Shown here piece by piece: positions 17,611 through 24,514 of a stretch of 64,000 nt of DNA. Where the stretch lies: NCBI RefSeq assembly GCF_003046175.1, contig NZ_PZZM01000001.1:310001-374000 (forward strand), written 5' to 3'. The position numbers and the translations under genes were made by a program. This DNA comes from Bosea sp. 124 (lineage in GTDB: Bacteria; Pseudomonadota; Alphaproteobacteria; Rhizobiales; Beijerinckiaceae). The notes under the pieces were generated by a model. That model was not told the origin of the DNA. It made no database searches and saw only the letters and a program-made list of their open reading frames with translations. The first letter of the stretch is position 1. Each line of letters opens with the position of its first letter.

Positions 17611-18600
17611 TCAGATCCGGGCCTGGAGCCGTTCGATCAGCGGATTGGCCTTGCGGAAGACATAGGCCGGCGCGCTGACGGTGACGTCGTCCGCGCCCGC
17701 CCTCGCCAGATGCTCGACCAGCGCAAACACCGCCTTTTCGGGGCAGTGGATCGTCACGATCCCGCCCGTCATGCTCGCGCCAAAGGGCAGGCGTGCGCCG
17801 AAGAGGCCGGCGAGATCACCCAGCATGTCCGAGGTGGCATCGATCCTGGCCCTGATCTCACGGACCGAACGCGCCTCCTCCTCGGCCGCGATGCGCGACA
17901 GGATGGCGTTGGCCGCAGCCTTCGCCCGCTCGCCCCAGGGCGCACGGACGGAGGCGACGAGATTGGCTTCCGACGCCAGCATCACGCCGTCGTCGAGGAT
18001 CTTGAGGGCATTTGCCGAGAGGGTGGCGCCCGTCGTCGTGATGTCGACGACGATTTCGGCCGTGCCGGCGGCCGGCGCGCCCTCGGTCGCGCCGAGGCTC
18101 TCGACGATGCGGTAATCGGCGAGGCCATGGCTGGCGAAGTAGCGGCGGGTCAGGTTGACGTATTTGGTGGCGACGCGGAGCTTGCGGCCCTGGCGGATGC
18201 GCATCGTCGAAGCGACATCGTCGAGATCGGCCATGGTCCGCACATCGATCCAGGCCTGCGGCACGGCGACGACGACATTGGCGTGGCCGAAGCCGAGCGG
18301 CGTCAGCATCTCGACGGCGGCGTCGGCATCGGCGACCTGCTCGCGGACCAGATCCTCGCCGGTGATGCCGAGATGGGCGGCACCCGAGGCGAGTTGCGCG
18401 ACGATCTCGGAGGCAGAGAGGAAGGCGACCTCTGCACCCTCGACACCGGCGATGGTGCCGCGATAGTCGCGCTCACCGCGCGACTTGACGAATTTCAGGC
18501 CGGCGCGGCCGAAAAAGGCCGTGGCATTCTCCTGCAACCGGCCCTTGGAGGGCACAGCCAGGACGAGCGGGGCATCACCGGCGAGCGGGGCTTCCGTCAT
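17611..18600 (-). CDS. hisG: ATP phosphoribosyltransferase, catalytic subunit
   Basis: First enzyme of histidine biosynthesis: ATP + PRPP to phosphoribosyl-ATP. The 329-residue protein opens with [19 protein letters not shown], and the PRPP-binding loop is [19 protein letters not shown]. In the neighbouring hisZ the two-subunit arrangement is seen directly. The ATG overlaps the hisZ stop by four bases (18597-18600), so the two are translationally coupled and made together. A C-terminal extension of about 80 residues beyond the catalytic core is usual in alphaproteobacterial versions. Confidence 0.95.
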
Positions 18601-19709
18601 GCTGCGTCTCCCGCCAGGCGTTCGAGCCAGATCGAAGCGCCGACCGCCGGGATCGGCGCAGCGGCGCCGAGGCGGCCGAGGACCTGATCGTAGCGCCCGC
18701 CGCCGGCGACCGGCTTGCCGTCGCCGCGGGCCTCGTCGTGAAGCTCGAAGATGAAGCCGGTGTAGTAATCGAGATTGCGCGCGAAGGCCGCCTGGAAGGC
18801 GATTGCCGCGACATCCACGCCGCGCACAGCGAGGAAGCCAGTGCGCTCATCGAAGGCGTCGAGCTGTCGGCCGAGATCGAGCGAGGCCTGGTCGGCCAGC
18901 GCGCGCAGGGCGGCAGAGGCGGTGTCGGGATCGCCCCTGATCGCCAGAACCTGCGCCAGCAGCGCCTTCACATCGGCATTGACCGGGTTCTCGCGCTCGG
19001 CCGCCCGCGCCAGGAAGCGCTCGGCGATGTCGCCCGCGCTGCGGCCGCCCACCGTGGAAATGCCGGCGATGGACAGCACGTCCTCGACGAAGGCCTTGGC
19101 CGCCTTGGGATCCTGCCCCTCCAGCGCCTTGAGCAGGCCGGCATGTGCGGCATCGCCATCGGCCGCGGGCGGATCGAGCGCATCGACGGCCCGCGTGCCG
19201 CTGCCCTGCACGACGGCGCGCATCAGCCGGCGGCGCGCGCCGGCCGGGACCGAAAGCCCGTCGAGCAAGGCGCCGAGCAGCGCGACGTCGCCCATCAGGA
19301 TTTTCGGGCTGGCGAGGCCGAGCGCAGCCGTCGCCTCGACCGTCAGCGCCATGATCTCGGCATCGGTCGCGGCAAAATCGTCACGGCCGAAGGATTCCAG
19401 CCCGGCCTGCGCGAATTCACCCGGCTCGCCGGCACGCATCCGGAAGACCGGACCGGCATAGGCATAGGCAGCCGGTTCGGTCAGGCCGGAGGCGATATGA
19501 TCCAGCGCGACGGGGATGGTGTATTCCGGCCGCAGGCACCAGTCGCGGCCATCGGCGTCCTGCGTCATGAAGATGCGGCGGCGGATGTCCTCGCCAGAAA
19601 GATCGAGGAAGACATCGGCCGGTTGCAGGATCGCGGGCTCGGCGCGGGCATAGCCCTCGCGCGCGAACAGCGCGATCACGGTCTCGATGCTGGCGCGGAT
19701 GGCGGGCAC
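18597..19709 (-). CDS. hisZ: ATP phosphoribosyltransferase regulatory subunit
   Basis: A 370-residue paralogue of histidyl-tRNA synthetase that lacks aminoacylation and instead completes and regulates the short HisG enzyme. Class II synthetase-like motifs remain: [14 protein letters not shown], then [14 protein letters not shown], and near the end [15 protein letters not shown] and [15 protein letters not shown]. The start is GTG. It lies between hisS and hisG; the distance to hisS is enlarged by the inserted GIY-YIG cassette, and hisG overlaps its stop. Confidence 0.94.
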
Positions 19710-19799: not shown

Positions 19800-19904
19800 C
19801 GTCATGCTCGGGCTTGACCCGAGCATCTCAGGACAACAGAGGCTCCCTCACCTCGGCTTGCCTGAGATCCTCGACCCTTTCGTTACGCTTCGACCGAAGA
19901 TCAC
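19800..19904 (+). repeat. Palindromic repeat family A, copy 1 (left boundary of GIY-YIG cassette)
   Basis: Bases 19800-19829 are the perfect inverse of 20247-20276 and contain the palindrome ATGCTCGGG / CCCGAGCAT. The rest, to about 19904, is a diverged version of the partner half that elsewhere reads CTTCGCTCCGCCCGAGAATGAC. The stop codon of the GIY-YIG gene (19901-19903) lies in its edge. Confidence 0.85.
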
Positions 19905-20200
19905 GTCGGGCAAATGTCCTCGAACAGATCGCGCCATTGAGGATTGGCTTTCTCGACCAACTCGATTTTCCATTCCCGATACCAACGCTTCAAACTCGTC
20001 TCGCGCTGAATGGCCAGATCAATGTGATCGAACAGCTCGAACCAGACGAGCTTTTCAAGGTTGTAGCGGGCCGTGAAGGAGCGGCTGGCGAGTTGCTTGT
20101 GCTCCGAGACGCGCCGAACGGGATCTGCCGTTACTCCGAGGTAAAGCGTGCCTCGCGGCTTGTTCGTCATGATGTAGACGTAGGATGGTTCGAGGTTCAC
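19901..20200 (-). CDS. Small GIY-YIG nuclease family protein
   Basis: A 99-residue protein consisting of one GIY-YIG domain: YVYIM near the start (residues 7-11), LYLGVT (19-24), the Arg-rich helix PVRRVSEH (27-34) and IQRETSLKRWYREWK. These match the standalone YhbQ-like group, which nick or cut DNA; the biological target is unknown. The GTG at 20200 is chosen because it begins exactly where repeat A2 ends; longer frames run through that repeat and encode its translation (MLGLDPSIS). The gene sits between hisS and hisZ and is bordered on both sides by inverted copies of one palindromic repeat. Confidence 0.88.
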   Translation of the reverse strand: MNLEPSYVYIMTNKPRGTLYLGVTADPVRRVSEHKQLASRSFTARYNLEKLVWFELFDHIDLAIQRETSLKRWYREWKIELVEKANPQWRDLFEDICPT

Positions 20201-20276
20201 GTCATTCTCGGGCGGAGCGCAGCGCGGGCCCCAAAATCTTCGGCAAGAGATGCTCGGGTCAAGCCCGAGCATGACG
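20201..20276 (-). repeat. Palindromic repeat family A, copy 2 (right boundary of GIY-YIG cassette)
   Basis: A complete 76-base copy: GTCATTCTCGGGCGGAGCGC at one end and ATGCTCGGGTCAAGCCCGAGCAT at the other. It starts at the base next to the GIY-YIG start codon and ends four bases from the hisS stop. Its 30-base outer end is identical to copies 1 (inverted) and 3. Confidence 0.9.
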
Positions 20277-20280
20277 CCTT

Positions 20281-21825
20281 TCATCCGTGTCGCGCGAGCA
20301 CCCGCTTCACGCCGTCGACCAGTTCCGCCAGCGGCACCGCGAACTGCGCCTCCGCCTGCTTGGCCTTGTGCTCGGCGGAATCCTTGACGTCGCGGCTGGC
20401 GGCGGCGAGTTCGGCCCCCAGGATGAGGTCCTTGATGATGACGGTTCCGGCCTCGCGCTCAGAAGAACCCTGAATGACGGCGCAGATCGCGCCGCGCCGG
20501 TCAGCGTACTTCATCTGGGCGTTGAAGCCGGACGATCCGAGATAGAGATCGGCACGGACCAGCGGCTTGCCGTTGCCATCGACGGCCTTGCGAAGCTGCG
20601 ACACCATCGCCTGATAACCCGGCATGAACTCCGGCGACTTGTTGTCCATTGCGGTCACGACGACGAGCGGGAGTTCGCTCTTCGCGTCGACGAGCGGCGA
20701 CTTGGCCGCCTTCAGCGCCGAATAGAGCCGCGAGACGCCGATCGAGAAGCCGGTCGCCGGCACGGGCTCGGGCCGGAAGCGGCCGACGAGCCCATCATAA
20801 CGCCCGCCACCCGCGACCGAGCCGAAGCGCACGACCTGGCCATCGTCGTTCGTGACCGGGAAGGTCAGTTCGACCTCGTAGACCGGGCCGGTGTAGTATT
20901 CGAGGCCGCGCACGACGGAAGGATCGATGCGGATGCGATCGGGACCATAGCCCGCCGCGACGACCAAAGCATGAATTTGACCGAGATCGGCGAACCCCTC
21001 TCGCATTGACGCGTTCTGGTCAAAATTCTTGTTCCAGTCTTTGATTGTGTCGAATTCTGGCTCGCTGCCCGCAAAGTATCCTGTTTCATTCTGAACTACT
21101 GCCAGAACGTAGGTGCTTTGCTCATCGTTCAGCCCCGCGCCCTTCGTGAAATCCCCGCTCTCATCCTTGCGGCCCTCGCCGAGCAGCAGCCGCACGCCCT
21201 CCGGCCCGAACTTGTCGAGCTTGTCGATGGCGCGCAGCACCGTCAGCCGGCGGCCGGCATTCTCCTCGCCGCCGAGGCCAATCGCCTCCATCACGCCGTC
21301 GAGCACCTTGCGGTTGTTGACCTTGACGACATAGTCGCCGCGCTTGATGCCGAGCGCCTCCATCGTGTCGGCAGCAAGCATGCAGATCTCGGCATCGGCC
21401 GCGACAGAACCCGCCCCGACGATATCGGCATCGAACTGCATGAACTGGCGGAAGCGGCCGGGACCCGGCTTCTCGTTGCGGAAGACGTAGCCGGCACGAT
21501 AGCTGCGATAGGGCTTCGGCAGGGCGTCGAAGTTCTCGGCGACATAGCGGGCGAGCGGCGCGGTCAGGTCGTAGCGCAGCGAGAGCCACTGCTCGTCATC
21601 GTCCTGGAAGGAAAAGACGCCCTCGTTCGGGCGGTCCTGATCGGGCAGGAACTTGCCGAGCGCGTCGGTGTATTCGACGAAGGGCGTCTCGACCGGATCG
21701 AAGCCGTAGCGCGAGAAGCTCTCGCGGATGACGGCGAGCATGCGCTCGGTGGCGGCGACATCGGCCGGGCCGCGATCGACAAAACCGCGCGGCTGGCGGG
21801 CCTTGAGCTTGCTGGGGGCGGACAT
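20281..21825 (-). CDS. hisS: Histidyl-tRNA synthetase
   Basis: Charges tRNA-His in the cytoplasm. The 514-residue class II enzyme shows motif 2 ([21 protein letters not shown]), the histidine-specific stretch [13 protein letters not shown] and motif 3 ([14 protein letters not shown]), with a C-terminal anticodon-binding domain. It is longer than the E. coli enzyme (424 residues), which is usual for the alphaproteobacterial type with internal insertions. It is first in the hisS-hisZ-hisG set, and its stop is followed at once by repeat A2 and the GIY-YIG gene. Confidence 0.96.
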
Positions 21826-22926: not shown

Positions 22927-23030
22927 CGTCATTCTCGGGCGGAGCGCAGCGCAGACCCGGGAAGCTCGGGACAAGAACACGCGCGAGACTGCTTCGGCAC
23001 GAGATGCTCGGGTCAAGCCCGAGCATGACG
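22927..23030. repeat. Palindromic repeat family A, copy 3
   Basis: GTCATTCTCGGGCGGAGCGC at the left and, at 23001-23030, a 30-base end identical to that of copy 2. It lies five bases beyond the glcF stop and separates converging genes. No reading frame of interest lies inside. Confidence 0.9.
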
Positions 23031-24437: not shown

Positions 24438-24514
24438 CGTCATGCCCGGGCTTGACCCGAGAATCTGGTCCCGAGAGTTCCCCGGGTCTCCGCTTCGCTC
24501 CGCCCGAGAATGAC
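24438..24514. repeat. Palindromic repeat family A, copy 4, between glcE and glcF
   Basis: A 77-base copy in the opposite orientation to copies 2 and 3: GTCATGCCCGGGCTTGACCC at the left and CTTCGCTCCGCCCGAGAATG at the right. It diverges slightly from the others. Its position inside an operon means glcF translation starts after a strong RNA hairpin. Confidence 0.88.

Follow-up and report, generated by a model that had tools for sequence, protein, structure and literature searches.

The closest described systems are those in which REP palindromes are paired with RAYT (Y1) transposases. In the portions of this literature accessible to us, the definition of a REP element includes a GT(A/G)G tetranucleotide lying 5' beside the palindrome (PMC3686654), REPINs are described as inverted doublets, and the RAYT gene is itself bracketed by inverted palindromes (PMC3116915, PMC3686654). 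Another line of work concerns the small UvrC-like (COG2827) GIY-YIG genes, whose role was called open in C. crescentus and one of which carries an SOS box there; these genes have the same size and domain as the gene treated here, and the accessible part of that report makes no link to repeats (PMC1839093). UPF0213 and Slx1 supply the nearest folds and PDB sequences to our nuclease, as weak matches, and none of them is tied to repeats. The genes of GIY-YIG homing endonucleases sit in an intron or in a single allele, whereas the nuclease gene described here sits at a repeat family. We take the nuclease described here to be a putative member of COG2827. To our knowledge, no enzyme has been assigned to GTCAT-tagged repeats, palindromes which reach up to 80 copies (one type) or 257 copies (another) per genome within the genus considered here. 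A search of open full texts, as opposed to subscription journals and preprints, found no paper in the text accessible to us that joins GIY-YIG genes with these repeats; as far as its accessible text goes, PMC9465073 lists both kinds of gene in one table only.

The locus that we compare with these systems lies in a 64-kb stretch of a Bosea genome (the window, by which the whole of that stretch is meant). As with the REP/REPIN-RAYT pairs in the accessible portions of the two papers, a gene is enclosed by inverted palindromes that carry a short tag on their 5' side, inverted doublets with no gene in them are scattered elsewhere, enzyme lineages have their own repeats, and some genomes hold more than one enzyme (PMC3116915, PMC3686654). 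The features of RAYTs found here are the inverted flanking repeats, their occurrence mostly as inverted doublets (in the TTGCGAG type), and the co-diversification of lineage and repeat. In contrast, the enzyme here is a GIY-YIG nuclease unrelated to Y1/HUH enzymes, the tag is GTCAT and not GT(A/G)G, each flank of the unit is itself a doublet, and framed loci occur in several phyla. Because the enzyme is unrelated and the tag is different, this is not a RAYT system, although it would appear to work like the REP/RAYT pairs.

A nuclease gene between two inverted doublets

The unit spans 477 bp (19800-20276), with CGTCAT at one end and ATGACG at the other. On the minus strand, hisS is followed by a two-hairpin repeat (20276-20200), the GIY-YIG gene (20200-19901), the inverse two-hairpin repeat (19905-19800), hisZ and hisG. 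A sequence-only reading of the window had described a 99-residue GIY-YIG gene exactly framed by inverted copies of one palindromic repeat, and had likened the arrangement to REP palindromes accompanied by a nuclease. The features are as follows.

20200..20276, minus strand: right (5') flanking repeat of 77 bp, a complete two-hairpin doublet, CGTCATGCTCGGGCTTGACCCGAGCATCTC...CCCGAGAATGACG on the minus strand
19901..20200, minus strand: GIY-YIG nuclease gene (PF01541), 99 codons plus stop, with a GTG start at 20200-20198
19800..19905, plus strand: left (3') flanking repeat, a doublet with its outer hairpin intact and its inner hairpin decayed, containing the stop codon
22927..23030, minus strand: third doublet of the same repeat, gene-less and complete, from repeat search and reading by eye
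24442..24464, plus strand: weaker copy of the core palindrome with 2 mismatches, from pattern search
20281..21825, minus strand: hisS, the upstream neighbour, named in the sequence-only reading; its C-terminal part served as tblastn query
18597..19709, minus strand: hisZ, the downstream neighbour, named in the same reading

The framing of the 99-residue gene holds at the coordinates first given: the GTG start overlaps the final base of the right repeat (20200-20276), the TGA stop (19903-19901) falls in the left repeat within its inner tag, which is degenerate, and hisS ends at 20281, four bases outside the unit, as had also been read. The repeat search likewise recovered the perfect 30-nt inverse copies at the outer edges (19800-19829 and 20247-20276) and the third perfect copy at 23001-23030. 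The inversion of the flanking repeats thus stood, but the notion of a single palindrome did not; by eye, each repeat is a doublet of two inversely oriented hairpins, of which the left inner hairpin is decayed. An alternative in-frame ATG at 20284 gives a 127-aa open reading frame that reads through the right repeat, and we chose the 99-aa start over it because the start GTGAAYCT is retained in 8/9 relatives at hisS-hisZ, the exception being L228 of G160 (L and G numbers are our handles for loci and genomes). The core of the repeat, ATGCTCGGGN5CCCGAGCAT, has 4 matches with at most 3 mismatches in the 64-kb window against 0.12 expected, a number reached by 0/100 shuffles, and its copies in the window are not due to chance. 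The exact core occupies 24 places in the 5.47-Mb genome, as compared to 0 for a reversed control pattern, and the core together with the tag and a CATNTC end yields 19 copies.

PF01541 is the only domain found in the 99-aa protein, which consists of a single GIY-YIG domain (E 1.6e-14, 54.4 bits against a curated cut-off of 22.6). The catalytic set of GIY-YIG enzymes comprises Tyr, Tyr, Arg, Glu and Asn, and among 178 family loci the corresponding residues are kept in 172 (Y9), 177 (Y20), 178 (R30), 178 (E67) and 178 (N86). With an AlphaFold2 model (pLDDT 91.6, built from 39 sequences), the top 13 PDB fold matches are UPF0213, Slx1 and one UvrC GIY-YIG domain, led by 1zg2 (E 1.7e-3) and followed by Slx1-Slx4 7cq3 (E 0.01), with none at or below 0.001; the nearest PDB sequences are 1ywl (E 0.02) and 1zg2 (E 0.048). 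By domain cut-off, catalytic residues and fold, the protein is a member of the GIY-YIG superfamily, and structure comparison gives the fold only and no further function. The protein shares with GIY-YIG homing endonucleases the core and a possible spread by cutting a site, but its 99 residues form a single domain in the predicted structure, which shows no distinct DNA-binding part. Among the ten hisS-hisZ nucleases dN/dS is about 0.11, where 40 of 45 pairs gave a value and dS is saturated (median 1.34).

Framing and repeat type among relatives

Relatives of the nuclease are found in 85/149 genomes of the family, among the matches listed, and in 53/61 genomes of the genus; some of the family copies, including the second copy in this genome, are broken by stops or reduced to fragments. 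This second copy (L001, G000:C1:4880070-4880336), a small GIY-YIG gene with an internal TGA, lies directly against a repeat of another kind (GTCGTCCCGGG type), and the gene downstream of it is found at that position in other members of the genus too. Framing was read at 178 loci from 101 genomes, among the matches listed, with fragments and the weakest matches left out. An inverted match of at least 16 nt frames the gene at 95 of these 178 loci as compared to 1/44 other ORFs, and when inverted and direct matches are both admitted, the counts are 123/178 and 1/44. The possibility raised by the sequence-only reading, that the nuclease never occurs beside the repeat elsewhere, is contradicted by these 123 loci. 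In a cross-phylum set of 79 of 80 loci (L027 was dropped for a short flank), the inverted frame is present at 19/79 against 2/283 other ORFs, and the inverted or direct frame at 35/79 against 6/283, leaving 60/79 without the former and 44/79 without either. When inverted matches of at least 16 nt were sought between 200-nt flanks, they were present at 42/91 family loci against 4/345 control placements and, across many phyla, at 19/79 loci against 6/3659. Furthermore, GTCAT or ATGAC lies within 200 nt on both sides of 142/178 loci, as compared to 117/1022 control windows. From the family and cross-phylum counts, therefore, framing is a common but not a universal property of these genes; named examples come from S. 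meliloti pSymB and from Rhizobium sp. CIAT894, and in CIAT894 the gene is flanked on both sides by perfect 33-nt inverse copies.

The repeats also occur as doublets with no gene between them. Our doublet counts cover the TTGCGAG type, and copies of the window repeat were read by eye around 15 loci. In the TTGCGAG type, the short forms are arranged as inverted pairs whose tags point outward (28 in G180, 7 in G052 and 27 in G154), such that, among the 149 places listed in these three genomes, 62/62 close pairs face outward, 25 places are singles and no pair has another orientation. The unit at L300 (G155) has the order doublet, gene, doublet with this type of repeat, and its doublet by itself has tens of matches in G155 and G165; at several other family loci (e.g. 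L118, L111, L144) the gene is flanked, by eye, by single hairpins. Another repeat type forms 7 doublets in the present genome and occurs in 22/149 genomes of the family. The exact GTCATTGCGAG pattern is absent from this genome and present in 56/61 genomes of the genus.

At least 8 repeat types can be told apart by eye in the genus, each beside its own set of nucleases, and some genomes hold several types. To quantify this, we compared loci in different genomes that do not share outer flanks, scoring a repeat as shared if the 200-nt flanks have a 14-mer in common. Sharing amounts to 57/3298 pairs (1.7%) at 45-50% nuclease identity and 160/4386 at 50-55%, and reaches 253/986 at 60-65%, 269/566 at 65-70%, 177/263 at 70-80% and 35/38 (92%) at 80% or above. 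Leaks in the context filter could inflate these raw rates; the permutation stays within genomes. Over 745 genome pairs, nuclease identity gives an AUC of 0.823 for repeat sharing, and shuffling the nucleases among the loci within each genome (100 permutations) removed the signal (mean 0.504, maximum 0.587). Judged from such comparisons, the type of repeat at unrelated loci can be predicted from the lineage of the nuclease. The edges of what is shared were read in 867 pairs of at least 65% identity at unrelated loci, 854 of which gave a homology block over the gene. The 5' end of 647 and the 3' end of 695 of these 854 blocks reach less than 15 nt beyond the gene; among the ends that pass it by at least 15 nt, 104/207 at the 5' side and 76/159 at the 3' side lie no more than 8 nt from a tag (GTCAT or GTCGT, ATGAC or ACGAC), where 5% is expected at random places, and about half fall elsewhere. 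With each locus used once, edges coincide with tags at 10/22 5' ends, 13/23 3' ends and both ends of 6/13. L139 and L150 share exactly TGTCATTCCGGGGCC...GCCCCGGAATGACAG.

Occupied and unoccupied sites

All 61/61 genus genomes searched have a HisZ match. Of 30 junction loci read, 28 have both hisS and hisZ, and 7 of these 28 carry the unit, always in the same orientation and 4-8 bases past the hisS stop. By coordinates, the unit is at hisS-hisZ in 10/61 genus genomes, with hisS and hisZ on either side in 10/10, and the suspicion that relatives might always carry it there is thereby dispelled. By eye, unit-less junctions contain either almost nothing (L210, 93 nt) or repeats of other kinds or terminator-like hairpins; their intergenic sequence is altogether different, and the clean empty site with a target duplication that was to be looked for at such junctions could not be read in them. 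The stretch directly after the hisS stop (L191-L219) is a hot spot occupied by different repeat families in different species, namely the CCTTCTCCC type, other doublets and terminator-like hairpins.

The nine closest relatives of the nuclease in the genus sample are all at hisS-hisZ, and for this reason the copy there looks bound to its locus and not freshly mobile. Presence of the unit changes 9 times on a HisZ tree of 33 genomes. HisZ rejects the group G182+G184 (p-AU 0.0004), whereas the nucleases of G182 and G184 group together; the nucleases reject G171+G184 (p-AU 0.029) and G160+G201 (0.044), and HisZ does not reject G160+G154 (0.10), where the four groups were all named with the trees already in view. 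As presence changes so often and the two trees disagree, the unit has often been lost, and it has probably passed from one lineage to another at this one site. Recent jumping of this unit is unsupported, given the nine closest relatives at one locus and the tree tests, and the unit looks to have been kept and lost. As such, the proposed likeness to a REP palindrome with its nuclease is borne out in the framing, the lineage matching and the edges beyond this locus, but not as to mobilisation, with relatives at one locus and no target duplication.

A second site can be followed at L300, where the flanks of the unit are 95-98% identical in the unit-less genomes G177 and G149. The spacing between anchors is 109 nt in G177 and 85 nt in G149, as compared to 580 nt in G155 and 608 nt in G165; in G191, the two flanks lie apart. 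The difference is not a clean insertion, since the unit-less sites hold a terminator-like hairpin that the unit-bearing genomes lack, and a like pattern is seen at some hisS-hisZ junctions. No target duplication was readable at the unit-less hisS-hisZ junctions or L300 sites. Among the features of insertion sequences, inverted ends are present, and the intergenic stretch differs between sites with and without the unit. From these two loci, we infer that units may tend to take the place of terminators.

Copy number is suggestive as evidence for the pairing, and was set aside, not being shown to be independent of phylogeny. In genomes with the hisS-hisZ nuclease the median number of repeat copies is 38.5, as compared to 8 in those lacking it (p 0.008, not independent of phylogeny), and 5 phylogenetically independent pairs give about 2.2 for the link and 0.5 against; 37/51 genus genomes that lack this nuclease still hold the repeat, in up to 80 copies. 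CTTG-type repeats reach at least 10 copies in 35/85 family genomes with a nuclease and 8/64 lacking one, among the matches listed and with phylogeny uncontrolled. By a strict rule, 11/61 genomes have a TTGCGAG-type nuclease locus, with a median of 51 copies against 11 (p 0.001), a contrast somewhat flattered because the rule missed L280 (G157, 7 copies; by eye).

Proposed recognition of the repeats and alternative accounts

Our main reading, to which we assign a probability of roughly 60%, is that the repeat bracketing the gene is recognised by the nuclease and most likely also nicked or cut by it, and that the enzyme moves, or once moved, the gene-less doublets in trans. The bracketed gene would be the enzyme-coding form of a repeat family that is otherwise scattered as short gene-less doublets. 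The nuclease would recognise the hairpins of its bracket in a form that is probably single-stranded or cruciform, and nicks made there would allow doublets, and occasionally the entire unit, to be copied to other places. The match between nuclease lineage and repeat type strongly suggests recognition; binding and cutting of the hairpins by the enzyme, and the spread of the repeats by this means, are what we infer, and hairpin cutting would be plausible since the Slx1 entries concern branched DNA. As many relatives are bracketed alike, each lineage by its own repeat, the comparison suggests that small GIY-YIG nucleases recognise, and perhaps spread, common short bacterial repeats. We consider it an even bet that they are the partners of a bacterium-wide superfamily of GTCAT-tagged palindromes (e.g. 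GTCATTGCGAG...GAAGCAATCC, GTCATTCCCGCGAAAGCGGGAATCC), and as such a second, independently evolved repeat-and-nuclease system beside REP/RAYT. Were this true, it would explain the origin of GTCAT-tagged repeats and the role of many orphan UvrC-like genes, and the pairing of repeat and nuclease would have arisen at least twice with unrelated chemistry. Joining these repeats with small GIY-YIG genes makes both questions testable with a protein of ~11 kDa and a synthetic hairpin.

It is conceivable, if unlikely, that the nuclease gene is instead a homing parasite which invades existing doublets by cutting and repair copying, while the repeats spread by other means. Lineage matching and a gene between inverted repeats would be expected here too, the single-hairpin flanks of L118, L111 and L144 give the impression that the gene occupies the space between the two hairpins of a single doublet, distant lineages, whose nuclease and HisZ trees conflict, have the unit at one and the same site, and an apparent lone remnant of the same repeat is seen by eye at the unit-less junctions L191, L197 and L207. 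However, in the present unit and in L300 the gene lies between two doublets and not inside one, and the repeat types diversify together with the nuclease, so that no second spreading enzyme is needed; the obvious other spreader would be the Y1 transposase, which most of these genomes lack. That transposase (PF01797) is absent from 55/61 genus genomes, this one included, with matches in 6/61, and is present in only 4/47 of the genus genomes that hold the window repeat, counts which, together with a 5' tag of GTCAT and not GT(A/G)G, make it barely credible that these are REP elements of the ordinary kind, mobilised by RAYT (Y1) transposases, with the GIY-YIG gene as a bystander, even though the doublet architecture is the same as that of REPINs in the portions of the literature accessible to us (PMC3116915, PMC3686654). 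RAYTs were accordingly rejected as the mover, Y1 genes being absent from those 55 genomes.

A domesticated nuclease that binds or cuts the repeats as its sites in the service of the host, for instance in chromosome maintenance or the processing of transcript 3' ends, would sit well with the low dN/dS of about 0.11 among the ten hisS-hisZ nucleases (dS saturated), with conserved loci that recur across the genus, and with the SOS box on one small UvrC-like gene in the accessible part of the C. crescentus report (PMC1839093). We nonetheless find a host function quite improbable, as the gene is patchy (85/149 family genomes among the matches listed, with broken and fragmentary copies) and its presence changes 9 times on the HisZ tree of 33 genomes. 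Passive clustering, in which repeats gather in unconstrained intergenic gaps where the nuclease happens to lie, would account for the position of the repeats in intergenic flanks at the loci read, but is very improbable against the framing of other ORFs at only 6/283 and 1/44, as compared to 35/79 and 123/178 for the nuclease, the lineage matching, and block edges that fall at tags.

With regard to the wider distribution of the gene, a phage origin was rejected, as none of 50,697 phage records matches the nuclease at E 1e-5, and 33 plasmid records do, 18 of them from Rhizobium, Sinorhizobium, Shinella or Neorhizobium. A nuclease locus some 5-6 kb upstream of hisZ recurs in the genus (L123, L124, L237, L239, L240, L242, L243, L250-L253) and carries another repeat type, GTCATTCCGGGGC; near the same distance from hisZ, G202 (L288) and G158 (L253) have nucleases of apparently different lineage. 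On S. meliloti pSymB, the locus (L327) lies between gltA and lpxB, and the 3' end of the nuclease together with its repeat has a second copy, 96% identical, 496 nt upstream (1203-1318 and 1699-1814 of L327), the duplicate resembling what may be a decayed earlier copy of the unit. Lastly, L186 has two tandem nuclease copies of equal score 483 nt apart (G084:C1:1765910 and 1766393), and a similar tandem pair is present in G140 and a weaker-scoring one in G114.
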